Shown: in pieces, positions 6,394-53,100 of the stretch
Numbering within the stretch: the first letter of the stretch is position 1
Layout: each line of letters opens with the position of its first letter
From: Anagrus nilaparvatae
Lineage: Eukaryota; Arthropoda; Insecta; Hymenoptera; Mymaridae
Direction of reading: 5' to 3'
DNA length: 64,000 bases
NCBI GenBank assembly: GCA_022575985.1
Contig: JAKSXM010000142.1
Location: 1,612,001-1,676,000, forward strand
The notes under the pieces: model-generated
What the model was told of the DNA's origin: nothing
What the model saw: only the letters and a program-made list of their open reading frames with translations
Databases searched by the model: none
Position numbers and translations under genes: made by a program

Positions 6394-6434
6394 TATTTAT
6401 ACACTTAGGAAACCATTTCATTTGCGAGAAAATA
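6394..6434 (-). promoter_or_regulatory. PSE-like motif + TATA module (copy 1)
   Basis: On the minus strand TTTTCTCGCAAATGAAATG is followed by exactly 12 bp (GTTTCCTAAGTG) and then TATAAATA. The upstream flank (GCGCTTTATTTTCTC) resembles that of copy 2 (GCACTTTATTTTCTC). A start about 30 bp past the TATA would fall near 6371, and the first T5 run on that strand is near 6290, so an RNA of about 80 nt is conceivable. No RNA was identified. Confidence 0.55.
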
Positions 6435-7676
6435 AAGCGCCTTAAATAATAAATTTACAAATACCATACATAAAGCTTTATTTCACTTCCTGCTATAATT
6501 TTCATTAACAGATCATAAATAAATAATTTATTTTAATTTAGCCTTAATATATCATAAAAAAGTCAACAATATTAATAAATTATTATGAAATAAGTAATTC
6601 TCACGAATAAATAATAAAAATCCAAAAAAAAATAGTAAAAAATCATTTCTTATATTTAGTTCGTGATTAGAATGTAAATATCAGATAATATAAGCTGTAT
6701 TTTTTTTAACTCGTATAATATTAATGTTTAACCTAAGTGCCGCAATGTTTCGTGCCTCATATTTCAATTCTATACCGATAATATAAATTTTTTTTTTTTT
6801 CTTTACTTTTCTTTTTATTTTGATTTACCGTCATTGCTCTTATTATTATTATTATTGTAGTCTTAATATTTTCTTTTTTTATGAGTTGTAGGTAAATATA
6901 AGGTTTTTTTGGAATTTATGTATTCGATAGAAGAAATAATTTTTTTTTATTTATTAATTCCTAAGGGGAATAAAAATTTAGCTTTATTTATTTATTTTTG
7001 TGTACTTTTTTTTGCAATTTTATGTACGGAAATAAGGAAGTGAAATAAGTAAAGGGACAAATTTTTAGTATTATTGTTGTAATCACTTTTTGCTAGTGTT
7101 CGTTTAAAAATAAATATTAAAAATGATGAATTTCTCGGAGTTTATTACTGTACAGCGAAACAATGCTTTCTAGACAATGGAAAAAATTTTTATTCATATT
7201 GAAAAATAAAAAGTTCCCTTTTATATATTTTTTATATTTACGTATTCAACGAAACAAAAAGTTCAAAATTTCTTCAAGCCTTTAAAAAAATTTATCGCTT
7301 CAAAAAATATTCTTTGTAGCGTAACTTGGTCGGAAGAAAAATTTTATTTTTTTGTCAAAATAATAAAAAACATTTTTAATTTAAATATTAAAAAACCAAT
7401 TTTCAAAATGTAATTGAAACTGTAGATACAGTGAAAATATTTTAAACTATCAATAAGTTAATAATTTTATTTCGTAATCATGTTTTCATAGTAGTATAAT
7501 AGTTTTTTATTTTATCGCAGTTAAGTTTTCAAGAATTCCTGGAAAAAATTTTCCTCGTTTTTTCATTGATTTGAATCCTATTGATTTTAAAACGGCAGCC
7601 TAAATTCACATATTTTTATTTTATAAGCTTATGTTTAAATTACTATTCTAAATAATAACTTGATATATGGCACTTT

Positions 7677-7716
7677 ATTTTCTCGCAACTAAAATGAATT
7701 TCTATTTCTATATAAA
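7677..7716 (+). promoter_or_regulatory. PSE-like motif + TATA module (copy 2)
   Basis: TTTTCTCGCAACTAAAATG is followed by a 12-bp spacer (AATTTCTATTTC) and TATATAAA at 7709-7716. The motif departs from the others at one or two positions (CTAA for GTGA). The first T4 downstream is at about 7754, so any Pol III product would be very short unless that tract is read through. Confidence 0.5.
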
Positions 7717-7992
7717 GCCGTACATTGCTTGATCTTTATGTGTATAATAATAATTTTAAAACATAATTTAATTCTTAATAAAATATTTTAAAGTCTTATA
7801 CAAGTATAATAAGTAATTATTTTTGGTTATTTATAAAAATATATACAGATCGAAACTTTTTGGGATTACACCTCATTGAAATGGTGTAAAGCAACAAGTT
7901 TTATAAAAAATTTAATCGTTTAAATTAGCCATTTCGTATCGTTTATGTGGAAATTTTTTATTGCATTCCATGTGGTTTTACTATACTAAAGA

Positions 7993-8058
7993 GTATACAT
8001 ACGTATACGTATGTCAAATACGTATACGTATGTATAATTATATACGTATACGTATGTC
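7993..8058. repeat. Tandem palindromic repeat (TACGTATACGTATGT)
   Basis: Three copies of a self-complementary unit close to ACATACGTATACGTATGT stand in line, separated by CAAA- and AATTATA-type linkers. Each unit can fold on itself. It is a small satellite-like cluster with no coding content. Confidence 0.8.
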
Positions 8059-8120
8059 AAATCACACAAAATTAAAAAAATTAATTAGGTCTAGAAAGGG
8101 CTTTTAAAATTAAATATTAA

Positions 8121-8291
8121 GCTCTTTTTACATTAGATTAAAAATCGAGATTAAATCTAGTCTAAGATAATAACTTATATAGTGTAGTTAGGGATTTTTA
8201 CTATTAATCGTGAATAACTCCCAATTACACTATAAAACTTTTAATGCTAGACTAGATTTATATCGACTTTTAATCTAATGTAAAAAAAGGC
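8121..8291. mobile_element. Palindromic MITE-like element
   Basis: The left arm contains TTTTTACATTAGATTAAAAA and a TCTAGTCTA-containing segment, both matched in inverse order in the right arm (TTTTAATCTAATGTAAAAAA). The arms are about 80 bp each and meet near 8205. No ORF is present. Confidence 0.75.
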
Positions 8292-8579
8292 ATTATTTAA
8301 ACACTTTGAAAAAACATAATTCATTGGTTCATTGCACGCAGTCGCAGACAGCATGCAAAAGTTGAACCCCATATTTCCCCCCTTGATTTAAAACATAGTT
8401 TTACGGGAATAACAGGCGTTCCATTTAAATTAAATAATCTTTTTAGTCCTAAATATTTTATTTATTTATTGCTACCAGTTGTACAAAATACTTATGTACA
8501 AGATATAAATATTAGAGTACCATGCAGAGATTGTCAAGTCAATCCATATGCAAGTACTAGTACAATGAATAAAAAATTT

Positions 8580-8740
8580 TAATTATAAAATTAAAAAAAT
8601 TCTCAAATTCTCAAATTATAAAATTAGAAAATTGTATTGTAATGTTGAGTAACATTTGTATTCTACCTAGTCCTCAGCTGGAAGTAAACATGTTCCATGC
8701 ATTTAGGTTGTGTTTAAACAAACCGGTTATAAGTTTTTTT
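8580..8740 (+). repeat. Dispersed repeat family R1, 3'-part copy
   Basis: It shares long identity with 41455-41590: both carry GAGTAACATTTGTATT, a CCTAGTC-containing stretch, AAACATGTTCCATGCATTTA and CAAACCGGTTATAAGTTTTT. A shorter terminal match lies at 54630-54690, and an inverted copy covers 11440-11900. The copy stops just before the 309-bp tandem array. Confidence 0.75.
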
Positions 8741-8888
8741 TGTATATTATTTAAGGAATTAGAAACATTATTATAGTCTCCAACCCAAGCCTGAATACTA
8801 TAAAATGCAATGTTTTGAAAAAGTGCATAGTAGATCAGAAATAGTACATTTTTATTAACACTAGGGAGCAAGAATGAAAATTCTGACA

Positions 8889-9715
8889 ATTTTCCATAAA
8901 CCTCTTTCGATTTTGGTTAAAATAAAAATTATCCAAAAATTTTAAAAGTCACTTAAATTCATTCATGTCATGTTTTTTAAGCACACTGACCTGGTAAACC
9001 ATTGATTTAAGTTTTCAACTGCTTCAAATCTTTTCGAGTTCAAAAGAACGAAACATCTCAAAACAAATAAAATTTGACCTTTTTCCATACCCCTTTCGAT
9101 TTAGGCCAAAATAAAAATTTTCAAAAAAATCCGTTTTCCCCATTTCATCAGCCCTTTTTTTTATTAGAAAACTTGGTTTTTAGTGATTTTTAACCAATTG
9201 AAATGATTTTATGCAAATAAAGTCAAAATTTCTAAAAATGCAAAAATTTTAAAACTCACTTAAATCTATTTATACTAGATTTTTTGGGCTCTTTAACCCA
9301 GGGAACCATATTGATTTAAGTTTTTCACTGTTTCAAACCTTTTTCTGTACCAAACAACGAAAAATTAAATAAAAAAAATTTTTGACATTTTTCCATACAT
9401 ACCCCTTTCGATTTTTGCGAAAATAAAAATTTTCAAAAAAATCCGTTTTCCCCATTTCATCAGCACTTTTTTTATTAGAAAATTTGGTTTATAAGGAATT
9501 TTAGCCAATTCAAATGGTTTTATGCAAACAAAATCAAAATTTCTAAAAATGCAAAAATTTTAAAACTCACAAATCCATTCATGTCAGGTTTTTTGAGCTC
9601 TCAGACCCGGTAAGTCATATTGATATAAGTTTTTAACTGTTTCAAATATTTTTTTAGAGTACAAAACATCGAAAAATTTTAGAAAAAATAATTAGCAAAT
9701 TTCCATATCAACTCC
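8889..9715. repeat. 309-bp tandem repeat array
   Basis: Units begin at 'TTTCCAT' near 8891, 9082, 9391 and 9700. The second and third units are both 309 bp and align throughout (CCCCTTTCGATTT, then TCCGTTTTCCCCATTTCATC, then a GGGCTCTTTAACCC-like stretch). The first unit is 191 bp because an internal block is missing, and the fourth is only begun. No coding frame is present. Confidence 0.85.
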
Positions 9716-11439
9716 TTTCTTTAAATAATATGTTACATAATTTTTGTCCCAATTTTTTCAATAACTGTAACTTTAAATGTTTTGAACATATGAAAATAAA
9801 AAGCATGAATTGAATGTTAAAAGAAACAAAGTGCTAAGTATAAAAGTATAGGTAAAAGGTTAAATGGCCAAACGATTGTATTTTTATTGAAAGATTTTAC
9901 AAAATTGTTCCCTAAGGACATTAATATACTGATATTTTAAACGTATAAAATAGATAAAAGAAAATTTTTTCTGTCCAAAATCTGAAGCACTTTAAAGATA
10001 AAATTTTTTAACAAAGCTTAATTTAAAAATTTCGTATCGCTAATTATGTCTTAGATCTTTTGCATTTTTTTCTTTATCCAAGTCAGCATATTAATCCTAA
10101 CAATTGATCAATACCTATCAATGTTAAAAAATATAAAACTATAGATATACTTTGAATATCCTAAAATGAACGATCAATACAATAACAACCAGACTAGACT
10201 CTATTGTTTTCACATAATATTGCACAGTAGCTCATGATCCCTTTATGAAAAGACTTTCAACAATTTTCCTATGTAAATTACTATATAATTCATACTTTCT
10301 CTCTCATACCTTATCCATACAAAAACGTACACATTCATACAAAGAAAATAGCAAAAGAGCTTAACAAATAATAATAAATATGAGACAAGCTAAGTGTCAG
10401 AGAAGTTTACAGTCGAGTGTATCTAAATTTTAGTTGATCTTCATCCATGAATAATATAACAATCTTTTATATAGAAAATGAATTTTCCATTTTCCTACTC
10501 GTTTTTACTTAATCCTTTTATTACAATTGAATATATTATTTCAAAATGAGTAATGCCTTAAGACCTGAATTTAGCTTTTACGAATTTACAAAATTCATAA
10601 ATCATTTTTAAATTTAAAAATATTATTTTTTAATTTAGAGTTAATTAAATTTAATACAATTCAATAAATTTTACATAATGCTCAAAGTTATAATTATTGA
10701 TTAAATTTTCGATACATAAATGTAACTTGCTTGGTTAAACTCGCATTTAACTGTTTATGACGTATTGATTTTAAATAATTGTGCACATAAAAGCTTCTCA
10801 TCAAAAAGGCATTTTTTTACATTCACATATTACATGACAATACATTTAATTACACGTCAAACTATGATACTTTTAAAAAGAGGTATTTGTTGAAATTTTA
10901 GACAGAGAGAAAGAGAAGTAAATTGTTTTGAAGTTCAATGAAAGTTTTTGATATAGAAATTTTCTATAGTTAAAAGTTAAAGGTTATGCATGTATGCAAA
11001 AACCTTCATTTATCGATTAAATATCAAAAGGCTATTATATTTATAGAAAATTATATATTGAGAGAGAGGTTCAAGTTTGATATGGGTCTATGAACTTTAT
11101 TTTATTATTCTGATTAAAATACTTTGAAATAAATAATATTCTTTTGTTATTAACTTTGGAAATAATTGATTAGTTTTTTTTGAATTTTGGTTTTAGTACG
11201 TTGATTGTTTTATAGGGATTGAATAAGATTAAATTTAGTGGAATTAAAGTTAAGTTAAATATTATTTTTGGTGTATGAATGTACCATCACCAGATTTATT
11301 TTTTGAATAAGTTTCTATTTCATTGTTGATACTTTTTGAATTATTCACCTAAACTTTGAACTAAATTTATTATATAAAATTCACTAAGATTTTAAACAAA
11401 TACTCCAGTCTAAAAGCGAAGAGAGAAGATGGTTTGATA
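9716..11439. other. A+T-rich intergenic DNA, no gene seen
   Basis: No coding frame or recognisable element was found. The sequence is ordinary A+T-rich intergenic DNA with short A and T runs. Confidence 0.55.
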
Positions 11440-11900
11440 TCGACGAACCATTAAAAAAAACGTCTACTAATGGTTTTTGAGATGCTGATTCGGAATCCAG
11501 GGTCCAAAATTGTTGGAAAATAAGAAAACACGAATACAAACAGGCATAATGCAAATGTTACGCAACATTACAATACAATTTGCTATTTTCATAATTTGTA
11601 ATTATCACCTTACCAGATGTTAAGATTCTAAACCTAAACTATTCTGATTCCCTAAACTCATATTATTCTAGGACCCTAAATAGAAAATATTCCAAGTCCC
11701 TTAACCTGAATTATAACAAGTTCCTTAACCTGAATTATTTCAAGTCTCTAAATCAAAATTATTCTATGTCCCTAAACCCTAAACTATTTCAAGTTCCTAA
11801 ATCGAAATTATTCTAAGTCCCATTTGCACCCCTCCTTGATTTTTAGATTTCCAGTCCCATATGAACCCCTCCCTATTAACATATTCCAACTTAAAAATAA
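11440..11900 (-). repeat. Dispersed repeat family R1, inverted copy with internal minisatellite
   Basis: This is the reverse complement of the 41090-41500 copy. It holds CCCCTCC-rich sequence, then a degenerate run of about 24-bp units (core CCTAAA..TTATTCCAAGTC), then ATAATTTGTAATTATCACCT and a CAACATTACAATACAATTT-like end. The minisatellite part spans about 11630-11825 with seven or eight diverged units. Confidence 0.75.
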
Positions 11901-13674
11901 TTTTCATTCATTTAAAAGGCGAGTACCGAGACATGGTAAAACTTAAAATGACAAAAAATTTTTTTGATAAAAACAAAACAAAACTATTTTTTATGTTTTA
12001 TGACGTTTCAACTATTAAAAAGCAAAAAATATTTCTACTTCCAGAATTCCGGTAACGGTAACGACACTTTTAGTGTAGGGATTTTTTGCAATATTTTGGA
12101 ACTGAAGCTAAAATAATCAAATTTTACTTTTTAAAGAGTAATTAGCAAAATATACTAAAAAATTGAGAAATTTCTTGGGTACAAACTGCTCAAACAAACT
12201 CTTTTTACCATACATATTAGCTCCTTAATTTTCCTCAAGAAGGAATCTTTTTGTACAAAACATCCATCAACCAGAGTATTATTTAAAAAAATTTTTTTTT
12301 CTTTCTTATCCTAAAACCATCATCAAAATTTCATTAAAACAACCCGTATAATATTTAAATTTAAACAAAAAGACTCCAGAAAATAATTTAAACAATATCA
12401 TTAAATTAAAATGAATAATTTATATTTTTTTTTTCAATTTCAAATTTATTTAAATAAATAACCTACTTACATATAATTTATTTAAAAATAAAGAAAAATT
12501 AATCTAAAAAAAAATTTTAATATAAATCTAAATTTAATTTTTTTTTCATCAATAACAAAAATTTAAACCCTCTGCTGTATAAAAATTTTTTTTTATTTTT
12601 ATTTTATAAATCCATAAATTTTACAATATTATATATAAAAATATCCTGAATGACGTTACATGACAATGATAAATGAACTTAAGAGTTCATTGATCCATTA
12701 TTTTTCAATACACCATGCAGTATATAAGTAAGTTTTTACCTTTTTTCCTTCATTGGACTTCAAGAAAATTGGACAAAAAAGAGACTTTTCTTTTTTTACC
12801 AATATTTTGTACATGATATAAAAAAAATTTTCCAATATTTTATCAATAGATTTAGTGAATGAGGCAATACAATACTTTAATATCCATTATTCTGTTCTTT
12901 ATGTCATTAAAACTTTTTATCCCTAAAAAAAAACCTTGATCTTGAAAAACGATTTTGGTGATAATCAGAAAATCTAAAAAAGGACGATAACACTTCAGCA
13001 ATAACATTTTCATTTGCAGTATACTTTAAAAGTTGTAGTCTTAACACACCCACACATATTTAGGAATGAAAAAAAGGAACGTATAGAGAGAAAATTTTGT
13101 GCTATAGAGTGCAGCAATTCTAAAAGCAGCAATGTGACATTATATGTTATAAGTATAGAGGATTTTCTTTGCGGTCGTCGACTGCAGGTTTGCACAAGTA
13201 AATTAATGGCTTAGGATATATATCTAACGTCTAACCTCCTTAGTTGGGATTAGTATTAACACGGGGATGTTGTATAGCAATGTCATTTAGAAACTCTGAT
13301 TCCCTTTTTTGTCTCTTTCTTTAAACTATAAAATAATCCTCTTTCAACCCTCTCTTTCTCTCTTTTTGTCTTTATCTTTTATTTATAATATTATCATCTC
13401 TTTTACTTTTGTAGACAGATCAGATCTGACCATGATTTCATATAAATACAGATGAAGAAAGTTGTTTCTCTTTAGGGATTTTCAAAATATGCTGATTTAG
13501 CACATGTATTTGTATTTATGTTTATAAGTACTATTTACAGACTATTTATGGGTAGTGTACCGTGTTATATTGAATTAGTTTTTATTGATTTATATACTTT
13601 TTGATTAAATTGTTAAGTAGCTTAGAATATATGGATTTTTTACAAAATACCGAAAACCATTCATTATGATAATT
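11901..13674. other. Intergenic DNA, one weak open segment
   Basis: Mostly low-complexity A+T. At 13010-13214 both strands stay open for about 60 codons and a TTTGCAG|T acceptor-like site occurs at 13018, but the translation matches nothing I know. I do not call a gene. Confidence 0.5.
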
Positions 13675-13866
13675 ACATTCCAAAAGGTAAAAGTAGACAA
13701 TCTAATCATTAATTTTAAAAATCATAGTTCATTGTAAAAGGGACATGTTCCTAGAAAGAAGACATAATACTGAAATGGTTAAGTTTTGACATTATAGTTA
13801 TAAATATAAATTAAATTCATTTTATTTAGACACAATTTAATATCAAAAAATGAATATTGTGATCTT

Positions 13867-13907
13867 CTTATATAACATCAAAAACTCATTTCACTTGCGA
13901 GAAAATA
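13867..13907 (-). promoter_or_regulatory. PSE-like motif + TATA module (copy 3, array unit 1)
   Basis: On the minus strand TTTTCTCGCAAGTGAAATG, 12-bp spacer AGTTTTTGATGT, then TATATAAG. This best matches the consensus. A start near 13844 is expected by analogy with U6-type promoters. The next T4 on that strand is near 13737, so about 105 nt could be transcribed. Confidence 0.6.
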
Positions 13908-14078
13908 AAATAAAATTTAATATAGGTATAATAAAATTTATTACAAGTATTCATCTGATTTAAGAAAACGTATTGTACACACGTCTGAAATTCACATAAA
14001 TATCAATCAAATAAATTACAAATGTTATATTCAAAAAGGTAAAAGTAGACAATCTAATAATTAATTTTAAAATTCATA

Positions 14079-14847
14079 CACGGAGCCGCGTTTGGTATAG
14101 TGGCAGCACCAACGTTCACAAGTACAATATACTTGGTATTATAGAGAAACAATGTTGTTCGTGTGACGCTACCAACTCGGTGAATTACATAAAATCAGCG
14201 CGTGCAGCGATTTTTAGAGTTTTGCCGTTAAAAAAAAATTTTTTGCTATATGTTATTTTGTATACTTACAATAACATGCTTTTTTAGAATAAAAAAATAA
14301 TAATATGCGTTATAATTTTGTTCGTATATTTATTTTTTTTTTTTTAATATTTTAGATAAATTAATATTTTTAGTATATTAGACATGTAAAACTAATATAC
14401 TAAAAATATAAATATATTTTGAAAATGCATTTTGATCATAAAATATGAAAATAAGGATTGATAAAAAGGAAAAAAAACGTTTTTAGGTGATAAAATTTTT
14501 ATATTTTTATGTATTTTTAAATATAAAAATAATATGTTTTACAATAATAATATTTACAACATCTGCGATCCTAACCTAGTATTATATTTTAAAATATATG
14601 CTTATTTTTTAAAACTTATTATACCGACTATAATTTAATTATAATAATATTATTTAAAAAATTCTTTTTTATAAAACAGTGAACTATTTATACGCGTTTA
14701 TCAATAATTATAATGCAATTATAACGAGACAACCGGTTTTAATTTATTTACATAAAAAGTACAACTTGGCACTCTCACGATACCAAGTTTTACTTATTAT
14801 AATACCAGCGCTACTGGTGCTGCCACAATACCAAACGCGGCTCCGTG
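14079..14847. mobile_element. 769-bp MITE, Tc1/mariner-type (TA target site)
   Basis: Terminal inverted repeats of 33 bp with one mismatch begin CACGGAGCCGCGTTTGGTAT. The element is flanked by TA on both sides (14077-14078, 14848-14849). Sister units of the surrounding tandem array preserve the empty site (15214: AATTCATAGCTCATTG), which proves insertion at a single TA. A TA target-site duplication is the hallmark of the Tc1/mariner superfamily. There is no transposase frame, so it is non-autonomous. A related end occurs at 49825. Confidence 0.88.
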
Positions 14848-15007
14848 TAGCTCATTGTTAAAAGCCACTTTCAACCAGGACATAAAAAATTAAATTGATG
14901 AACAAATATACTGAAATGGTTAAACTTTTGACATTATAGTTAAAATATAAATTAAATTAATTTTATTTGACACAATTTAATATTTAAAAAACGCATATTG
15001 TGATCTT

Positions 15008-15048
15008 CTTATATAACATCAAAAACTCATTTCACTTGCGAGAAAATA
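15008..15048 (-). promoter_or_regulatory. PSE-like motif + TATA module (copy 4, array unit 2)
   Basis: Same motif, 12-bp spacer and TATATAAG as copy 3, on the minus strand in the second array unit. Downstream sequence (AAGATCACAATATGCG) is homologous to copy 3 because the whole unit is duplicated. Confidence 0.6.
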
Positions 15049-15382
15049 AAATAAAAAAAATTTAGTATAGGTATAATAAAATTTATTAAAAGTATTCATC
15101 TGGTTTAAAAAAACGTATAGTATATACGTCTAAAATTCACATAATTATCAATCAAATGAATTACGAGCACTACATTCAAAAAGGTAAAAGTAGACAATCT
15201 AATAATTAATTTTAAAATTCATAGCTCATTGTTATTAAAGGCCACTTTCAATCAGGACAAAGCATTTAATAGAAAAATTTAATACTGAAATAGTTAAACT
15301 TTTGACATTATAGTCAGAAATATAAATTAAATTAACTTTATTTTGACACAATTTAATATTTAAAAACGTATATTGTTATCTT

Positions 15383-15423
15383 CTTATATAACATCAAAAA
15401 CTCATTTCACTTGCGAGAAAATA
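15383..15423 (-). promoter_or_regulatory. PSE-like motif + TATA module (copy 5, array unit 3)
   Basis: Identical motif, spacer and TATA box to copies 3 and 4, in the third array unit on the minus strand. Its perfect retention contrasts with indels elsewhere in the unit. Confidence 0.6.
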
Positions 15424-22299: not shown

Positions 22300-22520
22300 A
22301 AACTCAAAAATGGGCAAAAAACTTATAACTGGTTGACTTACAAAAGTTTGAACTTATATTTCTTAATTATTATAAGTCCTTGAACCAAAATTATAATAAG
22401 TCTCTAAGCCTAAATAAGTCCCTAAATCAAAATTATTCTAAATTAAATTTGTCCCTTTCTCCCTGAAACCTTCTATTTTCACTCCCTCCCCCCCACGTCC
22501 TTATAAAAACTTCCACTTTT
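22300..22520 (-). repeat. Dispersed repeat family R1, partial inverted copy
   Basis: It contains degenerate minisatellite units (AAGTCCCTAAATCAAAATTATTCTAA type) followed by CCCTCCCCCCCCAC, as in the 11440-11900 copy. The ends are not clear. Confidence 0.55.
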
Positions 22521-26527: not shown

Positions 26528-26566
26528 CTTTCTCGCAAGTGAAATGCGTTTGTAAGAATATATAAG
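26528..26566 (+). promoter_or_regulatory. PSE-like motif + TATA module (copy 6)
   Basis: CTTTCTCGCAAGTGAAATG, 12-bp spacer CGTTTGTAAGAA, TATATAAG at 26559-26566. A T10 run begins at about 26599, only about 10 nt past the expected start, so this copy could give at most a tiny Pol III product and may be decayed. Confidence 0.5.
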
Positions 26567-26846
26567 GAATCTCGTCAGAATATTGAAAGTAATAAGAATT
26601 TTTTTTTAATTTATTATTGTATACCTTTTTTGATGCTTTGTTTAAAATATACACCGTTTTCATATGAATCATAAAATGATTAGAACTGAGTCATTATTAA
26701 GTATTTGCGAGAGTATTAGCAATATTTTTTTTGTCATGTGGGGGGGCTTGGATTGTAAATTAAGAATTTTGGATGATATTTCGATGAAGAATTTTTTTAA
26801 TTTTTTCTGTAGACTTTTTACATTATAATTGCTCCAGTTCTTAGTA

Positions 26847-27176
26847 GTCCTGTCGCCAGCAATGCTATTTAATGCCATAAAATCCTAAAATAGCATAAAA
26901 GTTCCATGGAAAAAAATGGGTGGTATTTATGTTTTTTGACCCGCTAAACACGAATCCGGGGTCTATTTTGCGAAATTCGTGGTCAATTTTTTTTTATTAA
27001 CAAATTATTGGCCAATTTTGCAATAATTTCTTGATAACAAAAAATTGACCACGAAATTCGCAAAACGGACCCCGGAATCGTGTTCAGCGGGTCAAAAAAC
27101 ATAAATACCACCCATTTTTTTCCATGGAACTTTTATGCTATTTTATGGCATTAAATAGCATTGCTTGCGACAGGAC
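26847..27176. mobile_element. 330-bp near-perfect foldback MITE (TA-flanked)
   Basis: Arms of about 150 bp are almost perfect inverted copies, beginning GTCCTGTCGC and ending GCGACAGGAC. Both contain GCAATGCTATTTAATGCCAT and TTCCATGGAAAAAAATGGG. TA flanks both ends. The left arm has an extra ATCCTAAA-like insertion. High arm identity suggests a recent insertion. No ORF with transposase features is present. Confidence 0.85.
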
Positions 27177-27186
27177 TATAGTTAAA

Positions 27187-27225
27187 TTTTCTCGCAAACG
27201 AAATGCGTTTGTAAGAATATATAAA
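27187..27225 (+). promoter_or_regulatory. PSE-like motif + TATA module (copy 7)
   Basis: TTTTCTCGCAAACGAAATG, spacer CGTTTGTAAGAA (identical to copy 6), TATATAAA at 27218-27225. It lies directly beside the 26847-27176 MITE. No T4 run occurs for over 130 bp downstream, up to the next MITE at 27366. Confidence 0.5.
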
Positions 27226-27365
27226 CAATGCTAAAATAATGAAGTATATTATTAAAAATGATGAATATAATTTATAATTTAATTTAATTATCTTCATTTC
27301 TGACCTATTAAATTTGAGATTAAGATAATACATTAACAATTTGGTTTCAAATTGAAATCTATTAA

Positions 27366-27697
27366 CAGAGTATTCCGAAATACGGGCGCACGGCGCTAAG
27401 GTGTTCCAAAAATCGTGCGCGCCGCGCTGTTCACAAAACGTAATACGTATTTAAAAATTTGATTTTTTCTGATTTAAGTACGTAATAGCCTGAAATAAAG
27501 GAGAAAATTGTTATTGTTTGTTATTAAAAAGTAAAAATTATAAAAACTTTTGTCTTATTTTCATTTATAAATAACAAACAATAACAAATAATTCTTTTTG
27601 ATTCAGGTTAGTACGTACTAAAATCAAAGACGTAGTTGAAAACCATGTTAAAAACGGTACACTTTAGCGCCGCGCGCCCGAATTTCGGAATACTCTG
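27366..27697. mobile_element. MITE with CAGAGTATTCCG ends and TAA duplication
   Basis: Left CAGAGTATTCCGAAATACGG and right CGGAATACTCTG ends are inverted, and G+C-rich GGCGC-containing blocks follow in both arms. An inner inverted repeat (TTGTTATTGTTTGTTATT with AATAACAAACAATAACAA) forms the core. TAA on both sides would fit a 3-bp TWA duplication as in PIF/Harbinger elements; that assignment is inferred. No ORF is present. Confidence 0.8.
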
Positions 27698-29691
27698 TAA
27701 GATTATTGGTTGACTATTACTATTTGTAAGAATACCTTTTGATTAATTATTTATCTATCAAATATGAATTGTTAGACAAGTTTTAAGTACCTATAAAAAC
27801 ATTTAAATAAATTTTTAAGAATCTTTTCTCATGGATTGAGTTTTCTTACGTCAAAAAGTCTAAATATCGCGAAAAAACAAAAAATTTAAACATAAACACA
27901 TTGCTCGTTAAATTTTTGAATGAAAAAATTTTTAATAAATATACGTTTTTTTTCTACTTTAATGTATTTAATGCACGCTTAAATACTTTTTGCGATAACA
28001 ATAATGCTTGTTTAGTATACTATAAAACAAGCTAAGTTGGTAAATATTATGAAAAAAATAGTATACTATATGAAAAAAAATAAAATATGTAAATTATTTA
28101 AAAAAAAAAAAAACGTTTATTGGTTAATTAAGAATTTTAACTGAAAAAATTAATTAATTTTTATACTGTCAAAAGAAATGAGTTTTATGTTTATAATGTA
28201 AATAGTAAAAAAAAATAATAAACATTTTAGTTTTTTAATATTTGGCTGACTGTAACAAATAGTAAATTACGGTAGTTAACCGCATGAATAAACACTACGT
28301 TTGAGAATAGTTTACATAAAAGAAAAAAAAAGCAGAAAGAAAAAATTTATGTTTTTAAATTAGTTCTACTTTTATTTTATTCTCGTTTATGTGCACGCTT
28401 CATTTGTGTTAAAAAAAAATGGGTTTTCAACTTTTTTCCTTAAAATAATTTGCTATTAATGTTATTTTAATGAAATACAAAAAATATTTTCAAGATTATA
28501 AAGATAACTTCTGATATTTTTGAAGAAAACTTGGCCAAAATAAACGTAACGTTCTTTAAAAAGCTTTAAGTAAAAGTTTTATTTTTTATAAAATTGTCAA
28601 AAAAAAAATTTGAAAAAAAAATTTTTTAAATTGCATAAAAGTTTTTCAAAAGTTTCTTGTAAGAAATTTTTTCAATTTTTTTTTGGTTTTCGTTTAAAAA
28701 AGAGGGGTTTAATGAGGTTAAGATGTTGAGAAATATTTTTGATTCGATAATTTAATTTGTTATTACTTTTTTACAAGCTTATAAAATAATTTCAAGTTAA
28801 ATTCAAACAAATTTTTTTTTGATTCTTAACTTTTTTGGTGGTTTGTGCACTGAAAAAAAATTCGGTTACGACTACTGGATTTCCAGTTGCAACTACCGAA
28901 GCTTCGGTTGCTACCAACGGAAATCTGATTATGGCAAATGGATTTTTCTTTTAAAACGTAAAGAAAAGTTCAAAAAAAAATTTTTTAAGTCCCACCATAA
29001 CGCCTCGCATTGTAAATGAGTGAAACTCATTTTTGCAACTGCAAATTTTTTTTCGATGTAGTTTTGTATTTACCCTTTTACTTTGAAAAAACTTTGAATT
29101 TTGGTTTTCACATAAAACTGTAAAAATTTAATGATTAAGCATAATTTAAATTAATTTTTTCAGCTATAAAAAACTTCAACAGCATGCACTTTATTGTAAT
29201 TTCAATAACCTCGCTAAAAAACTAAATTACTTAATAAAAAACGTACGAAGGAAAAAATGTGCATAAAAACTTTAAAAATATAAAAATTTTACAATTAAAT
29301 AATAAAAAAAAAAATTTATGTAATAAAATAACATTTTAATATAACCTTCATTTTTTTATACCAGAAGATAAATTTTTTTCTTTTATTATTCATAAAAAAA
29401 AGAAAACGTTGAGATAGGATATAACAAATCGATATGTAAAGGTTAGGTTTTATAATATCTAATTGAATTTTCAACAAATAATAAAAAGATAAAATTTACG
29501 TTTTCTTTTTTTACAACTGAAGATTCTTTTTTTACTGTGGATTTACGTAATTGAATTTTTTTTCAAAGTAAAAATTTTTTTTACGAATTAAATTATTGTT
29601 TATTTTATTAAGCGTTTTATTTAGATGTCCTAACCTAAAAATTGAAAAATATTTATTTCCTTGTTAATACACTAAAACTTTGCTAAAACTA
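27698..29691. other. A+T-rich intergenic DNA with one small inverted-repeat element
   Basis: No coding gene was seen. At 28848-28930 a CACTGAAAAAAAAT-type end is followed by a strong hairpin centred on the 14-bp palindrome ACCGAAGCTTCGGT (28895-28908). It is probably a diverged relative of the CACTG-ended MITEs. Confidence 0.55.
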
Positions 29692-32887: not shown

Positions 32888-33511
32888 AGTCAAGACACCA
32901 GAAATATAAAATGCATCCAAATATGGATCCAAGTCAGTAGATCTTACGTATTTTTAGTCGGTAAAAGCGATTTTGAACGTTTTATTCATTTTCTGGTGGC
33001 TAGTTTTGAGTAATTTACGCTGTATCGCCTAAAATAACCAAAAAATATTGCAGTTTGAGCCGAATTTTAGTAAACCTATGTAGTTTTGCGGGTCGGTAAT
33101 ATCGATTTTGAAATCAGATTTTTTAAATTCAAAATGGCGGACTCTAGGTCCCACAATTTTAAGTTTTTAACCTCAAAATCTGTAATTCGTCTTTAAAATG
33201 TTTGAAATAGTATAAATTATCGATTTTAAGGTTAAAAACTTAAAATCGCAGGACCTAGAATCCACCATTTTGAATGTAAAAAATCTAATTTCAGAATCGT
33301 TATCAGCGACCATCAAAATCTCAGAGGTGTACCAAAATTCGGCTCAAGTTGCAATATTTTTCAAAAAATTGTATTTTGCTTATTTTGGGCAATATAGCAT
33401 AAATTACTCAAAACTTGACAATCGCTTTTAGCTACCAAAAATACGTATAATCCAATGGTCTGATCCATATTACTCCATTTGGATGTAGTTAACATTGCTA
33501 GTGCCTTAACT
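32888..33511. mobile_element. Foldback MITE, family M3 copy 2
   Basis: It is a palindrome with arms of about 310 bp, homologous to 29692-30190 (shared TAGTTTTGAGTAAT, AACATTGCTAGTGCCTTAAC and ATATGGATCC). It has an extra central block in which TTTTAAGTTTTTAACCTCAA is mirrored by GGTTAAAAACTTAAAAT. The left terminus has mutated (CA in place of TA). No ORF is present. Confidence 0.8.
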
Positions 33512-41089: not shown

Positions 41090-41590
41090 TGACATGGAAC
41101 ATGTTTATAGGGAGGGGGTACTTCAGAACTTGAAAATTAAGGTGGGGGGGTGAAATTTGTCCTATTTAAGGGGGGGGGGGGTCAAATGAGACTTAGAATA
41201 ATTAGGTAGATATATATTATATATAAATGAATAAAATACTTTTAAAAGACTTTGAAAAATCTGGGCTTAAGGACTTAGGATAATACAGGTTTATGGACTT
41301 AGAATAATATCTTGGAATAATTCAGGTTCAGGGATTTGGAATAATTCAGGTTTAGGGACTTGGAATAATTCAGGTTTAGGGACTTGGAATAATTCAGGTT
41401 TAGGGAATCAAAATAGTTTGGGTTGAGAATCTTAACAGCTAGTGAGGTGATAGTTACAAATTATAAAAATAGAAAATTGTATTTTAATGATGAGTAACAT
41501 TTGTATTATACCTAGTCTTCATCTGGAAATAAACATGTTCCATGCATTTAGGTTGTGTTTACACAAACCGGTTATAAGTTTTTTTAGTTA
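41090..41590 (+). repeat. Dispersed repeat family R1, fullest copy, with 24-bp minisatellite
   Basis: In order: an AGGGAGGGGGTA block, G-runs at 41144-41150 and 41170-41179, GTCAAATGAGACTTAGAATA, about seven units of a 24-bp minisatellite (GGTTTAGGGACTTGGAATAA core; best units 41320-41405), AGGTGATAGTTACAAATTAT, and the conserved end with AACATGTTCCATGCATTTAG and CAAACCGGTTATAAG. Inverted or partial relatives lie at 8580, 11440, 22300, 54610 and 63700. No ORF is present. Confidence 0.8.
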
Positions 41591-44500: not shown

Positions 44501-44844
44501 AATTTTTGGTGATTCGCCTAATTTTAACCTATTTTTGTAAATAAAAACAGTTTGTGGAGGAAAATGTATAGAAAATAGTAGTTATTGGGATTTAAGGTCC
44601 TAATTTTAATTATTAATGAGAAATAAAACGTACTATGAGAAATCTAGGACATTAATGACAGATTTTGTTAATTTGTAAATAGCGTTGGTGTGAAGATTAA
44701 CATTATGCTTCATAAGCAATAATCTTAATTTTATTACTTCATTCATAATATTACCATAAATTTCGAGGTTATTTAATTAATAAACTGGGGCTTCAAAGCA
44801 GGGGTATTTTTAATGTATTCGCTATTTGGGTATCCAAATTTGAT

Positions 44845-45064: not shown

Positions 45065-45584
45065 ACCAAATCTGACGCGAATCTGATGATGTTCAGTAAC
45101 TAAACGCTCTCAGCCGTATTTGGACTGGAGTAAATATATAAAAGTAATATTCCATATTTAATTGGAACGACATATTTCTTCATATTACAGCGCCCTCTCG
45201 GGCATGCAACTAATTTAATTTTCTAACTTAGGGACTTTCTATAATTAAGCGGTTGATGCCTGCGATTGAGCGTAACCTAACGTTACGTTGTGCAGAAGTC
45301 AATTCCTCATATCAAAAAACTAAAAATAATAAAAAAATTAAAGCGTTATTACTTAACAAATATTTTCTTAGTGGCAACTGTAGTATGTATGAAGGGATGA
45401 TTTAAATGTTTATTGCATCAAAGAATTGATGTAAGATGAGATACGCTAAATTGAGATTACAATTCACTTGCAAAAGCATTATAAAAGAATAAAATGTCCG
45501 ACATGTATCATGTATGCTTTACGGTTAAATAACTTATGAAAATAAATAGTATAACGATTTTAACTTTTCGTTTGCAAACTTATA

Positions 45585-45625
45585 TATTTATACTTTATCG
45601 TGATCATTTCTCTTGCGGGTAAAAT
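45585..45625 (-). promoter_or_regulatory. PSE-like motif + TATA module (copy 8, diverged)
   Basis: On the minus strand ATTTTACCCGCAAGAGAAATG, exactly 12 bp (ATCACGATAAAG), then TATAAATA. The motif departs at several positions and the spacer is unlike the others, yet the spacing is kept. Confidence 0.45.
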
Positions 45626-45778
45626 TTGAATAAAATATAGTTCATGTTGCTGCTTCTCAACTTTAATATTACATACTTATTTTTATCACATTTTTTGTGT
45701 TTAGTATTTTCAATACAAAATTTTATTGTTCCTATATTGAAAATTTTTTCAACTTGCTGCAAGCGAAAATTTTCTCTT

Positions 45779-45942
45779 GCCTCAAGCGGATATTTTTCTA
45801 AGGCTGATTCCAGACTTGGCATATTTTCTAATGTTTTTCGCTCGTTTTGAAATCATATGTGGTTTTTTGAACATATTTTATATGGTATTCCATGTGGAAA
45901 TATTCAAGTCTGGAACCAGCCTAAAAAAAATCCGTTTGAGGC
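45779..45942. mobile_element. Small inverted-repeat element
   Basis: Left arm GCCTCAAGCGGATATTTTTC and AGGCTGATTCCAGACTTG are mirrored by CAAGTCTGGAACCAGCCT and ATCCGTTTGAGGC. Arms are about 40 bp around an 85-bp centre. It has no coding content. Confidence 0.75.
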
Positions 45943-46617
45943 AAGTGGGCATCCACTTGCGGTAAGAGGAAAATATTTGCTTAGCAAGTGTAATTTATTT
46001 GAAATAAAAATCCAAAAACCTTTAAAAAAAATATAATGACCAACAAATAGTAAATATATGTATTCTCTTGGGTGTAACCACTTTACTAAAAAATATCATC
46101 GTCCTTACAAATACTTTCAAAACCCAAAAAAAATCCAATAAAACATAAAGTATAGATAAAACAAAAAGAAAAACAATTCAGTCAAGATCGACTCTAAAAA
46201 GCAAGTAATTCCGCTTGGGAATTATCTATGAGAAAGGTGTAGGCTACATTTCACCCCTTCCAAATGATATCTGTTGGTTATTTTTAGTAACACTTATATT
46301 TTATATTTTTTTCAGTAAGACACAAATATTGTTTACATTTACGAGATAAAAATTTAGAGAGATGAAAATTATTCCGTAAAAAATCATAAATAACGAACAT
46401 AATATTATAAAAAGCACATCGTATAAGTAAACCGATGAATATAGCAATTTTTTAAGAGCATATCAGCATTTTTTTATGACCATAATAAGACTAACACTCA
46501 GCTTTCATATACACTTTTATTATTATATAAATTTTTTTTTTAAGTTTGAGGGTAAAAAACAGGGAAGTTTTTTTTTTTTAAGCCAAAAGGCAAAAAAAAA
46601 GACTAAGAAATAATAAA

Positions 46618-46650
46618 ACGCATATGGGACGCATATGGGACGCATGTGGG
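46618..46650. repeat. Triple 12-bp repeat ACGCATATGGG(G)
   Basis: Three head-to-tail copies of about 11-12 bp, each carrying CATATG or CATGTG (E-box-like hexamers). Possible cluster of binding sites or a minisatellite seed. Confidence 0.6.
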
Positions 46651-48363
46651 TTACGACGAGTTTTTGTATTTTATAGGTAAAACAAGTAACATTATTTTTC
46701 TTTTTTTATTTAACAAGCTTTTAAGAAATATTTTTTATTATTTGTGTGCTTAAAGCATCGTATTTTCTATATTTTATACAAACACACACAGACAAAATTA
46801 AATTTTAAAGTAACGAGAGAAATGATTTTATATAAAATAATTAACTAAAATCATCCTAAATCTACAATTAAATTTGATTAGTATTCTATCAGAATGGTGT
46901 AGTATTACTGGACAAATATTTATTCAAAATATTCGCATAGTATAAAGTTCTTGACCAAACTATTCGAACATGTATTTGTAAAGTGAACGTTCGTTAAGGT
47001 ATAAAATCAGAGTTATTAAAGCAAAGAGCTGTTTTATATGGTCTTGAATACTAAAAGGTTTAAAATAGATAAAATAATGGAAAATATATTTTTATCATTA
47101 TTTTGAGTGAGTTGAATTTGTAATTTTAGATATTTTATTAAAAATTTTTTTTTTTTAATATGAGAGGATAATTTTTGGTTTTGAATGTGAATCAATTTTT
47201 TTTCATGGATTTCTTGCTCGTTTTACATTACAAAACAGACGTTAAACTCTGAAGCAGAGAAAAAAGCTCTTAATAGAAGATCCCTGAAAAAGGTACTCAT
47301 AAACACTTGAATAAAATTAAAGTTTTACAAAACGGCGAACCCTGAAAAAGCAAAATACTAAATTTATTCATCGGTGAAAAGAACCAAAAATTATCATTAT
47401 TAATTGTGAGTATTCATAAAACCCAAAAAAAATTTTTAAATAAATTACTAAAAAATCCTGCAAAAAAAAATTGACATTTACTAATAACGTTATTTTATTT
47501 TCTAGAACAATGCAGTAAACAGTAAATCTTAAGATAAATTAAATGGCTTAGAAATGAATAATTAACTACATAATTCATTTAATTAAACATTTATTATACT
47601 TAAATCTAAGTAATAAATAAGTAATTACTTTAAAAAAAAAAAGATTTGGCAAAGTCCGATCAGCCATAAAGAAGAAAAAAAAACCTTTTGAATCTCGCTT
47701 TTAAGTTTGGCTTGCATATAATCCAAAAAGCTTTTCGAATTTGGCTTAGAAAAAAAAAACGTTTTAAAGCTTTCATGAACTGGAAACGATAGGCGTTTAT
47801 CTTTTCTTATTTTCCTTTTTTTAAAGAAAAAGTAGACGAAGAATAAGCAAAGAAGAAAACGACATATTTAACATCAAAAACTTTCTAAAATATAAGAAAA
47901 TTTACTTGAATGAGAATTTTCGTTAATTAGAATTTTAATTTTAAAACTTGTGGTTTTTATTATAATTACAACTTTTTCTTTTTGGCTTCTTAAAGTAATA
48001 ATAATTTGTCTAAAAATTTTATGTCAACTAGAGTATAAAAAAACGTTAAATTCAATTTAATTTTATTTAAATAAGTAAAAAGCCTTTAATGAAGAAGTTG
48101 TTAGATTAAAGTATAGATTTTTTTTATCAACTTGTCAACTGCACGCTCTTATACCGGATAACTCCAATTCGTATAATATAAATTGTGTGAAGTACCCTAT
48201 AATTTATTACAAGCAAAAAAAAACCCTTTTTTTTAAAGATTTTACTGATTTTATACCTCTTTTTTAGAAAATGCTGCGATTGTACGTTGCACTAAAATTT
48301 ATTTCTTTTTAAGGTCGTACATTTATGGAGGTGTGCTTTTTCTACTTCTTCTTTAAAAAAGCT

Positions 48364-48365
<2 letters not shown>

Positions 48366-48395
<30 letters not shown>
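48366..48395. repeat. (TA)n microsatellite
   Basis: About fifteen uninterrupted TA dinucleotides. Confidence 0.95.
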
Positions 48396-48397
<2 letters not shown>

Positions 48398-49693
48398 CTT
48401 TTAAATGTAATTTATCTAAGCTATACTGTGACTGTATTCTCTATTCAACGGTGTCGCTACCAACTGGTATAGTTAAAAAAAAATGTTTTTTCTATGGCTT
48501 TGAAAATGTATTGAAAAGCTTTATGGATTATCATTTATTTTCTATTTTCTTTTGGTTTTCATTTCTATAACTTTAAATTAATTATTTTTTGTTTTTGAAA
48601 ACTAGCGAATCCATAGGTAAAAATATAATTTTCGTTAATAGAAATCAGAATGATTTCGTCGCCAAATTTTTCTTCTTAATCGTAGATAAATTATTGGTAC
48701 TACTATTTTCTTATTTTTTTTTATTATGTCACAAAAATACATGTACCGTAAAGAACGAAATAGCTTACTGCAAAAGTACCCAATAGAGAAAAAGAGAGAT
48801 AGATAGAGAAAGGTGATATTTATAGTTACTGCAAAAAACTCGATATCTTCGATTTTTTTGCTACTTTTCTTATTTTTTTTTTTGGTATAGTGTAATAATT
48901 TTTACACTTTTTCGGTGTTTTATTGGCTTTAACAATTGTTAAAATTATTACATTATTATTTTTACTTATGTTTCTTTTTGAAATCGTTTATGTATCTGCT
49001 CCATTAAATTATTTTGTATTGGGATTTTCGTAAATAAAAAATCATAGTTTCAAATTTGTGATTTTTCCAAATGTTTTCGCTTAATTTTACGTATTTTAGA
49101 TATTTTATAGTCCAGACACGGAAAATAAGGCCTAGGTACATGATGGATTCAAAAGGAAGAGATTATGCAACTTAAATTTGTTATGTGCTGATTATGAATG
49201 TTAGGTCTTTTTTCCAGAAAATAGTCACATTTTTAGCTGTTTAGCACAATTTAGATAATTTTTGTCAATTTTTTTAATGTTTTGAGCCCTGAATTAAACA
49301 GAATGAAATTATCCTTAAATCGCCTTAAATTGAACTTATACATTTAATAAACAATGATGAATAATTCAGGGAACGTGTTGCAAACTGTTTGTAATTGCGC
49401 GAATGCTTTATTTTTAAGTATCACTGGGCTTCTTTACAAATAATAGTTCGAAAGATTTTCAAACCCATTATTTATTCTCTAAATGATAATTTTTTTAGAA
49501 ACTAAAATTTATAAAAGATCACAAAGATACGCTAAGGTCAATCGAGATATCAATCTAATCTAAATTTTTTTTCAATTATTATAAACACTTAAATATTCAT
49601 CAGTAAATTATATGAGCAACAATCAAAAAAATATTAAATAAATTTGTAATTATTAAATTTGTAAACTATTCAATGAGTTAATCTCTTAACTGA

Positions 49694-49734
49694 CTTATAT
49701 AATGTTTAAAATGCATTTCATTTTCGAGAAAAAA
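49694..49734 (-). promoter_or_regulatory. PSE-like motif + TATA module (copy 9)
   Basis: On the minus strand TTTTCTCGAAAATGAAATG, 12-bp spacer CATTTTAAACAT, TATATAAG. A T7 run on the same strand near 49628 would end a Pol III transcript of about 45 nt from the expected start near 49671. Confidence 0.58.
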
Positions 49735-49824
49735 AAAGTGGTTTTTATGGCTTCAATTTTACAAATTTTTTGAGGAATTTTCAAACCCCGTATTTTATTC
49801 TTTAAATAATTTTTTTAGAAACTA

Positions 49825-49884
49825 CACTCAGCGACTATTGGTATTGTGGCAGCACCAACGTTCAAAAGAACAATAGACTAGTCT
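49825..49884. mobile_element. Fragment of the TA-targeting MITE seen at 14079
   Basis: Directly after TA it reads CACTCAGCGACTATTGGTAT and then TGTGGCAGCACCAACGTTCA, matching the terminal and subterminal sequence of the 14079-14847 element. The sister tandem unit (49490-49520) lacks it, so the empty site is again visible. The other end is lost in an A-run. Confidence 0.65.
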
Positions 49885-50055
49885 ATAAAAAAAAAAAAAA
49901 ACACATTGTGAAACGTTAAGATGCATTTTTTTCAATTATATACTTAAATGTTCATTTGCAAATTATATAAGCAACAATCAAAGAAATAATAAACAAATTT
50001 ATTAAATGTTAATTTTAAATTAGAAAACTAATCAATGAGTTTCTCCGTTAACTGA

Positions 50056-50096
50056 CTTATATAATGTTCAAAATTCATTTCATTTTCGAGAAAAAA
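50056..50096 (-). promoter_or_regulatory. PSE-like motif + TATA module (copy 10)
   Basis: On the minus strand TTTTCTCGAAAATGAAATG, 12-bp spacer AATTTTGAACAT, TATATAAG. It is the sister of copy 9 within the tandem duplication. A T4 run on the minus strand lies near 50024-50027. Confidence 0.55.
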
Positions 50097-50102
50097 AAAG
50101 CT

Positions 50103-53100
50103 GATTATATCAGTCATAATAATTATATCAAAATCAACATTATTGTTGTAGTAATTATGACTTCTCATTACATTTGTACAAAAGTTAAGTATTGATTATT
50201 TTACAATTAACTGAATAATATTTTTAATTTTAAAATTTTTGATAAGATGCATAAAGTCAATACCCTACAGCAGATATTTTTAGTATGTTACTTTAATCGA
50301 TAAATTATCTTCATTAATATTACAAACTATACATATTTAATTAGATTTTAGATTATATTAAACATCCTTTAGAACTATTCATAACTTAATCAAAAATTAC
50401 AAGTTAATCAGAAATATTGTTTTATTTAGAATCTATGAAAATTGTATTATGAATAAATTTATTTAAAATTCAATTAGCGACAAAATATTTGTTTTTAAAT
50501 AAATTATTTAAAAACATTTTTGATGTATTTTATAAGGTAAGCTCACAAAGTTCTTATTGACACTTGTATTTTTATAGCGTATATGTATTGTATATACTTA
50601 TAGAGAATGATGTCTAGACAGATTCGATTGTAACTACACGGTGCTCTACAGAGTATTTTGCAAAGAATTCCTTTGAAACAGCTATAATGTTTTTAATTGC
50701 ATTTTTGAAACATATAGAACCGGATTCCAATGAGGCGTGTTAGGACCTCTTCTAACTTCGATTTTACTAAAAAATATTTTGCTAAATTTTTAGACATACT
50801 GAAAAAATAATCCAGTTATTGTAACCAAAATTTTCTGTCACTATAATCCTGATTGTGGTAGGTGAAATTTTTTTTAATGGTTTTGAATGGTTTCAGAAGT
50901 TAAACATTTTTTGGTTCCTTATTGTGATATGTGAAATTTTGATTTTTGATTTTTTGTAATTAGATGTAATACCTCATTTTTTTTCCATAAAAGTACTAAT
51001 ATCTAGAAGTATCGTTTTTACTCGATATCTTGAATCTGATACTTAATTTTTTGAAAATCTTTGCTACCAAAATATCCAAAAACAGAAAATTCATACAAAA
51101 TCAGTCTCTTTTCTTTCACATTTTCAAATTAAATTATTCATACATATTTATCTTTATTAAATTTTCTTCAAAAAACAAAGAAAACAACATTATAAAACAC
51201 TATCTTTTTAAAATTTATTCTACATATCCATATAAATCGTATAAATGTGCAGTCAAATAAAAGATCACGTCTGTCAACATTAAGAAAAAATATATATACA
51301 CACACACACACACAACCATGTATATAAATATATTCAAAAAGAGTTAGAAAAACGAATTTGTACTACAAAGTAAAAAGTATAGAAAATAATATATACCACG
51401 TATGTATGAAAAAAAAATATATATTTAAAATATATTAGAAATACGCAGGTTTTATCTAATTTATCTACACGTGTGTAGAATTCTATTCTTTTTAAGTACT
51501 TAGTATAAGTAAAATCTAGTAGGTAAAAAGTAACCAAATTTTTCAACTTTGTTGGGTTCAAAAAAAAATTATAAATACAAATTTTTGGCATTATTTATTG
51601 TTGTATTTAATAAATACTGTAAAACTCAGTTACAGAACGATAATTTAGCCAAGATATTTTATGTTGAGAAGAAATATTCTCGCACGTACATAAGTAATTC
51701 TTTTCAATTATTTATTTTTATTTTGTGCAATGTCAACGTTAGACATTACGTGTCATATGTATATTATTCAAAATTTTTATAAAGTTCAAAAGAATGTAGT
51801 ATACAAATATAAAAAATTTTTTTTAAAAATGCAAAAATTGAGTTTAATTTTAGGCTTAGCTTCAGGGTCACTTTTTTTTCTTATAAACATTATATTCTGG
51901 CCTCAAATTTTTATCGAATAATTTGATAAATAAAAATAAAATTTTTCTCGAAAGTGAAATGAGTTTCAGAACTTATATAAAGAAAATTAAATCAGTTTTT
52001 AATTCAAGCATTTATTAATACATTTTTAAAAATTTAATTGTAAACATATTACCTATAAATTACAAATAACCTATCGTTCAAAATTTTCGAATGTGCTGTC
52101 CAACCTTTGCCATATTATAAATATTATATTTGTTTAAATTTACTATTTAGCTTATTTAGCCTGTATTGAGTGTTAAATTCTTAAATTAAACAGTAAAAGA
52201 TACAAATAACCCTTATGTATATCATAAACTAAAATGAAAAAATTTAAGCCATCTACTCTACTACCATTCCATGCATAAATATTCTGTACTAAATATTTTA
52301 TAACTACTAAATCATTGGGTACAAAATATATAGGGTGCTACACTAAATAACGTAAGTATGCTATCAATTAGGACATCAGGCATAACAAGTACCGCATGCT
52401 GCTTTTAATATTTCTGCTTGAATAAATTTTAATACCCTTTTGTGCAGAATATGGACAGTCGTCGACAATTAGTTGTTATTTAATTTCAGTATTTTAAGTA
52501 CTCAAAAAGGTTTTATTTTTTTTTTGCTTTAAATTTTTCAACTATTAAACTAAAACAACATGTAAGTCTTTTTTAATATTGTTTAAAACAGTTAACTAAA
52601 ATAAATTCTTTTTTAAAATAAAGTAATAATTTAATAAAATGAAAATTTAACCTTACTTAATTACGTATAAATTCATTTAATAAAAATTTTTAATAAAGTT
52701 ACATAAAGTTTAAACTAAACAGGGGGTAAAACGCATAAAACTTTAATAATGTAGTATTTTATATTACATTACACGAATATTTACTTAATAAAATTTTAAT
52801 TTAAGCAAAAGTTACTTCATATTTTTTTAAATTAATTTTTTTTTTCTTTTTTCCTCAAAAATAGACTTTTTTTTTAATATTAAAAAATAAAGTGTTAATT
52901 GACGTTCATTTATACGTGTCAGTTGTACATTTCTTTATTTGACTGTACTATGTGATTGCTTTAATTACAGTACGCATTTTATCTGTACATGAATGATTGA
53001 TGAGTCTTTGACAATTTATTGGATGACGTTTTGATGGGTTTATTTGAATTTTGATGAAGAACAATGATAAATTGCAGTAAATTTTTGAATTTGAATATGA

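Follow-up and report, generated by a model that had tools for sequence, protein, structure and literature searches.

Dispersed promoter modules with a fixed 12-bp motif-to-TATA spacing and a phased GC-poor stretch downstream in Anagrus nilaparvatae

Introduction

To our knowledge, animals use promoters of the small nuclear RNA (snRNA) type for a small set of housekeeping RNAs. Insect Piwi-interacting RNAs (piRNAs), as far as we know, arise from the long transcripts of clusters and from those of transposons and genes, rather than from numerous genes with one promoter each. Here we describe eleven short modules, each a conserved motif followed at a fixed distance by a TATA box, that are dispersed over a 64,000-nucleotide stretch of DNA (the window; GC content 24%) from the hymenopteran Anagrus nilaparvatae (Mymaridae; GenBank assembly GCA_022575985.1, contig JAKSXM010000142.1, positions 1,612,001 to 1,676,000). 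Three described systems come closest. In fly U6 promoters, the proximal sequence element (PSE; in flies PSEA) and the TATA box lie 12 bp apart (PMC4227766), and the choice of polymerase is set by the sequence of the PSEA and not by the TATA box (PMC4227766, PMC9652321). At motif-dependent piRNA loci of nematodes, an snRNA-derived motif drives capped precursors of about 28 nt, and a high-melting stretch (start to +19) is followed by a low-melting one (+20 to +40) (PMC6436959). Most insect genomes can yield predictions of thousands of sequences that are led by a PSE and have a template-like region (PMC9841428).

Eleven modules with a single spacing

Sites are named by the first base of a 19-mer (column 0), the motif of minus-strand modules lies at the high-coordinate end, and the TATA box starts at column 31. 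At all eleven sites, 16-19 of the 19 positions agree with TTTTCTCGCAAGTGAAATG, and in each of them a TATA box (TATATAAG, TATATAAA or TATAAATA) starts exactly 12 bp past the 19-mer. Every remaining position of the window has at most 14 of 19 matches, which leaves a score gap from 16 to 14, and 30 first-order Markov sequences of window length held on average 0.03 positions with at least 16 matches (maximum 1). An earlier note on this DNA had proposed the eleven sites, and all are present, two of them with starts shifted by one base (7678, not 7677; 51943, not 51944); eight distinct spacer sequences and a single spacer length, as it had also claimed, were recovered when the spacers of the 11 sites were compared. 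The sites fall into seven groups (6432; 7678; 13905/15046/15421; 26528/27187; 45623; 49732/50094; 51943):

6394..6432, minus strand: module of group 0; motif, 12-bp spacer, TATAAATA
7678..7716, plus strand: module of group 1; motif, spacer, TATATAAA
13867..13905, minus strand: module of group 2, tandem copy 3; TATATAAG
15008..15046, minus strand: module of group 2, tandem copy 2; TATATAAG
15383..15421, minus strand: module of group 2, tandem copy 1; TATATAAG
26528..26566, plus strand: module of group 3; TATATAAG
27187..27225, plus strand: module of group 3; TATATAAA; lies a few bases downstream of the end of a 334-bp hairpin element
45585..45623, minus strand: module of group 4, which has diverged most among the eleven; TATAAATA; without the downstream GC trough described below (0.225)
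49694..49732, minus strand: module of group 5, tandem copy 2; TATATAAG
50056..50094, minus strand: module of group 5, tandem copy 1; TATATAAG
51943..51981, plus strand: module of group 6; TATATAAA

On a matrix of columns 0-23 and 31-38, with each group weighted once, the eleven score 33.8-46.2, and 21.4-43.6 with their own group left out. Site 45623 gives no blastn alignment to any other module at E 1e-3, and its score of 21.4 on the matrix built without it is far above background. When the window was scanned with the matrix, a single further position scored above 11 at 12-bp spacing, reaching 18.3 with an ordinary motif part (9.2) and a full TATA part (9.1):

63252..63290, plus strand: group 7, a probable twelfth module of diverged sequence; 12-bp spacing, TATATAAG

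Of 100 second-order Markov sequences, 2 attained this score at 12-bp spacing (p 0.02) and 31 did so with any spacing of 6-20 allowed; because of the latter figure, 63252(+) is probably, not certainly, a diverged twelfth module. With it counted, the 12-bp distance between element and TATA box holds in 12/12 sites. Weak motif matches at 28162(+), 571(+) and 16803(-) have no TATA box of the module spellings at +12. Modules 6432(-) and 7678(+) point in opposite directions, away from one another, about 1.25 kb apart, and have bases in common directly upstream of the motif (GGCGCTTTA / GGCACTTTA); GATGGCGCTTCA directly precedes 63252.

Tandem units and inserted elements

Sites 13905/15046/15421 and 49732/50094 are clear tandem duplications, and 26528/27187 is a probable one. 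In the triplicate array, 15421 and 15046 are 375 bp apart and 15046 and 13905 are 1141 bp apart, 773 bp of the longer distance being an inserted element. The three copies do not differ at all in columns 0-39, which is modest evidence since neighbouring 20-column bins (13/20 to 20/20) can be equally complete. Units 50094 and 49732, 362 bp apart, can be aligned (82%) over a stretch that begins 6 bp ahead of the motif and extends to about +168, with no alignment upstream of the motif. Sites 26528 and 27187 are 659 bp apart, 334 bp of which belong to a hairpin element (26845-27178), and are alike over about 48 bp only.

The 773-bp element (14077-14849) inside unit 15046 has 35-nt inverted ends and TA borders, its empty site is visible in unit 15421, and it is an insertion at TA within one tandem unit. 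A related element end occurs at 49823-49898 in unit 50094 (75% over 76 nt), and inverted-end elements flank module 27187 both just upstream (26845-27178, an almost perfect hairpin whose ends carry TA) and just downstream (27365-27698). Ten inverted-end elements were hand-picked among the pairs listed (25 of 37 in one scan); four of these ten overlap the 400 bp downstream of a module, against 1.2 expected under random placement (p 0.025, post hoc). One reading of this overlap may be that elements insert into open chromatin at the modules.

Constraint within the modules and free flanks

Between sites of different groups, mean identity is 0.865 in the motif and 0.86 in the TATA box. In the spacer it is 0.52 over bases 1-5 and 0.31 over bases 6-12, where chance is 0.31. 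Upstream, columns -60 to -6 are near the chance level of 0.31-0.32 (identity 0.32 in columns -20 to -6) and columns -5 to -1 stand at 0.42 (z 1.9). Downstream, identity is likewise near chance in columns 38-61 (0.35 in columns 38-42, 0.26 in columns 43-61) and is 0.42 in columns 62-100 (z 3.9), the last because the sequence is AT-rich there. As similarity extends over the first five spacer bases, the conserved element is nearer 24 bp, with TTT; this PSE-like element of about 24 bp reads TTTTCTCGCAAGTGAAATGnnTTT.

Cross-group alignments (blastn) mostly stop at columns -5 and 38, the widest spanning -15 to 34 (6432/7678), -17 to 41 (26528/51943) and 0 to 61 (15421/51943). Similarity running on beyond the module, by which a transposon or repeat would be recognized, was not found among the cross-group alignments in the window. 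The modules might still be pieces of a transposon or other repeat, given the tandem copies and the several hairpin or inverted-end elements in or beside the units, but identity at chance within the spacer and near flanks while the spacing is still 12, together with the empty site of the 14077-14849 insertion, makes this very improbable and largely excludes it within the window. A spacer whose sequence is at chance past its first bases while its length stays at 12 bp, in a module with free flanks, points to a constrained promoter module and not to a decaying repeat. The argument of the earlier note for promoters over repeat remnants is thus well supported: only motif, spacing and TATA box are constrained, and a phased downstream composition accompanies them.

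A phased GC trough downstream

This downstream composition, a phased and A/T-balanced GC trough behind the modules, is new here and had gone unseen in the earlier note. Columns 40-56 have a GC, averaged over groups, of 0.26-0.31; this drops to about 0.10 over columns 67-106, which lie 36-75 bp beyond the start of the TATA box, and has recovered to 0.24 by column 112. Judged on the seven original groups, the trough is present in six, with GC of 0.05-0.11 in columns 67-106. The GC-poor stretches are:

6326..6365, minus strand: GC-poor stretch of module 6432 (columns 67-106), GC 0.075
7745..7784, plus strand: GC-poor stretch of module 7678, GC 0.05
13799..13838, minus strand: GC-poor stretch of module 13905, group 2 mean 0.108
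14940..14979, minus strand: GC-poor stretch of module 15046, group 2
15315..15354, minus strand: GC-poor stretch of module 15421, group 2
26595..26634, plus strand: GC-poor stretch of module 26528, group 3 mean 0.10
27254..27293, plus strand: GC-poor stretch of module 27187, group 3
49626..49665, minus strand: GC-poor stretch of module 49732, group 5 mean 0.062
49988..50027, minus strand: GC-poor stretch of module 50094, group 5
52010..52049, plus strand: GC-poor stretch of module 51943, GC 0.075
63319..63358, plus strand: GC-poor stretch of the probable module 63252, GC 0.10

For the deepest 40-bp bin in columns 38-298, p ranged from 0/5000 to 0.0006 when a single site was taken from each group in the 12 possible ways. 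At fixed columns 67-106 in eight groups, 63252 included, the signal survives the dropping of any single group (0/20000 each, uncorrected for the choice of place). The same stretch has a GC of 0.098 behind modules versus 0.242 behind 100 control TATA boxes (p 1.2e-4, groups as units), the controls being boxes of the module spellings that are not among the eleven, with the TATA box of 63252 included. No comparable trough was found upstream (GC 0.19) or in columns 120-380 (0.21), nor downstream of the weak motif matches 28162 and 571. Site 63252 was found without using the downstream stretch; its GC there is 0.10.

In columns 56-105, A and T are balanced at 0.44 each, and runs of four T (T4) are neither enriched nor depleted (9.3 vs 8.4 ± 1.8 in shuffles), so the trough is not a string of RNA polymerase III (Pol III) terminators. 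The early T-runs, which the earlier note had counted against small-RNA genes, carry little weight either way, with the downstream T4 frequency about as composition predicts. A terminator T-run at a regular place was not found behind the modules either, as T4 is not enriched and the first T4 after TATA+31 is scattered from 5 to 214 bp away. These results bear on the possibility of classical type-3 Pol III genes, with a U6/7SK-like promoter and fast-evolving small RNAs that end at T-runs. The arrangement of PSE-like element, 12 bp and TATA box is that of fly U6 (PMC4227766), and Hymenoptera employ such promoters for telomerase RNA too (PMC9841428); however, the T4 counts, the A/T balance, the scattered first T4 and the lack of any known RNA family downstream in an Rfam search of the window leave this explanation rather unlikely.

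Search for products behind the modules

No Rfam family, and no snRNA, was found at gathering score in the window, and at E <= 5 nothing overlaps any module or the first 250 bp downstream. The 17 matches at that threshold (16 microRNA families and one Wolbachia small RNA at 54338-54522) were rejected; among the microRNA matches, 26959-27072 and 33133-33269 fall in hairpin repeats and 7993-8061 in a tandem repeat. A search of the window found no tRNA behind the modules. A shared coding exon, considered for a GC-richer conserved block behind 15046 and 50094, was dropped, the block being the inverted end of a TA-flanked element. Common downstream 8-mers (one mismatch) reach at most 4 of 7 groups, which two of three random controls equal; the site set gave nine such words and comprised 11 sequences, against 7 sequences per control. 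Elsewhere, a match to the module pattern in a Bacteroidales contig was a chance match with TATAAC, viral contigs had 0 matches for two module patterns, and the motif letters turned up only unrelated papers in the literature.

Likeness to known promoter elements

The similarity of the motif to known PSEs was assessed for the 19-mer and for a 25-mer. For the human H1 PSE, p was 0.05 (19-mer) and 0.014 (25-mer), for the human U6 PSE 0.16 and 0.03, for the fly U6 PSEA 0.45 and 0.76, and for the combination of all three elements 0.056 and 0.016. For calibration, the known elements were compared with one another: fly U6 and human U6 did not recognize each other (0.51), and the pairs fly U6 and human H1 (0.008) and human U6 and H1 (0.0006) did. 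The assignment to the snRNA (PSE) type made in the earlier note draws on the layout, which equals that of fly U6 (PMC4227766), and on a likeness in sequence that is borderline to the human PSEs and absent for the fly U6 PSEA.

This borderline likeness would also suit TATA-type promoters of RNA polymerase II (Pol II) in front of duplicated, fast-evolving longer genes, protein-coding or long non-coding, with the motif as the site of some other factor. TATATAAG and TATAAATA are good Pol II TATA boxes, and conservation of the tandem units extends to about +140 to +170. On the other hand, a strictly fixed distance between motif and TATA box is unusual for ordinary activators, inspection by eye revealed that tandem copies differ by indels that break the frame and by stop codons close to the start, and no convincing open reading frame (ORF) was seen behind the modules by eye, with no family search run on ORFs. 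We consider such longer Pol II genes unlikely.

Neighbouring genes and repeats

A CRAL-TRIO (alpha-tocopherol transfer protein-like) gene lies in pieces, joined by eye, at 53259-54190(-). Its best named matches are from Hymenoptera, with Nasonia (53%) followed by Eretmocerus, Ceratosolen and Phymastichus, all of which we take to be chalcid wasps. An RR-1 cuticle protein exon at 56259-56645(-) has seven matches, from other insect orders or unnamed. Related-looking minisatellite arrays with units of ~24 bp, around TTGGAATAATTCAGGTTTAGGGAC and its complement, occur at 11628-11821, 22365-22436, 41311-41406 and 63789-63873, and a tandem array of 2.5 copies of a 309-bp unit spans 8934-9693.

Discussion

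The window contains a constrained promoter family: the module is defined, its geometry is fixed and its flanks are free, some units are locally duplicated in tandem, and the composition downstream is phased. As to its purpose, we give about even credence to a dispersed family of small transcription units that make short non-coding products from snRNA-type promoters. Each unit would open with a single module made up of the PSE-like element of ~24 bp, the 12 bp from 19-mer to TATA box, and the A/T-balanced GC-poor stretch. SNAPc and TBP would bind the module, transcription would begin some 25-31 bp beyond the start of the TATA box, and the polymerase, which might be Pol II or Pol III, would come off the DNA early, within the GC-poor stretch or behind it. 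The products would be short non-coding RNAs of no fixed sequence.

Several observations weigh against such small transcription units. The group of 45623 (1/7) lacks the trough, with a GC of 0.225, and the place and width of the trough were picked after the profile had been seen. Likeness to known PSEs is borderline, with none for the fly U6 PSEA. Downstream of the 11 sites there is no structure signal (folding z -1.0 to +1.1), and the coding exons sought behind the modules, by eye in ORF lists only, yielded no convincing ORF.

Compared with insect U6-type (type 3) snRNA promoters, the modules have the same 12-bp distance between upstream element and TATA box (PMC4227766), and the motif is a candidate PSE, identified by this layout. 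Unlike those promoters, the modules are many, have no snRNA behind them and are followed by a GC-poor stretch. The telomerase RNA genes of Hymenoptera are a further likeness, being a case of an snRNA-type promoter outside the classical snRNAs (PMC9841428). That study was aimed at telomere templates, and the available parts of it do not pursue the other predictions (PMC9841428).

Type I piRNA genes of nematodes resemble the modules: they too are dispersed single units, each has a short motif of its own upstream, the products are not conserved, and a low-melting stretch lies downstream (PMC6436959). They differ in that a TATA box is present at 11/11 modules here and is reported to be absent at the P. 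sambesii loci (PMC6436959). The low-melting half of the nematode pausing signature is strong here (6/7 groups), whereas the high-melting half is unconvincing: GC 10-25 bp past the TATA box is 0.29 vs 0.22 at control TATA boxes (p 0.03), and the contrast between a high and a low window has p 0.03-0.10, with its optimum at the scan edge (TATA+7). If transcription began 25-31 bp beyond the start of the TATA box, the low stretch would cover about +5 to +50 and so lie closer to the start site than it does in nematodes. By analogy, the modules may work like nematode piRNA genes.

If the density of 11 or 12 modules in 64 kb held elsewhere, this genome would hold thousands. It is a decidedly doubtful proposal that a hymenopteran evolved, independently of nematodes, many single-RNA genes with an snRNA-derived promoter and a low-melting early stop, feeding a Piwi or other small-RNA pathway. 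More generally, units of this design dispersed over a genome would put the snRNA-type promoter machinery to a new use and would perhaps be an independent parallel to the piRNA genes of nematodes.

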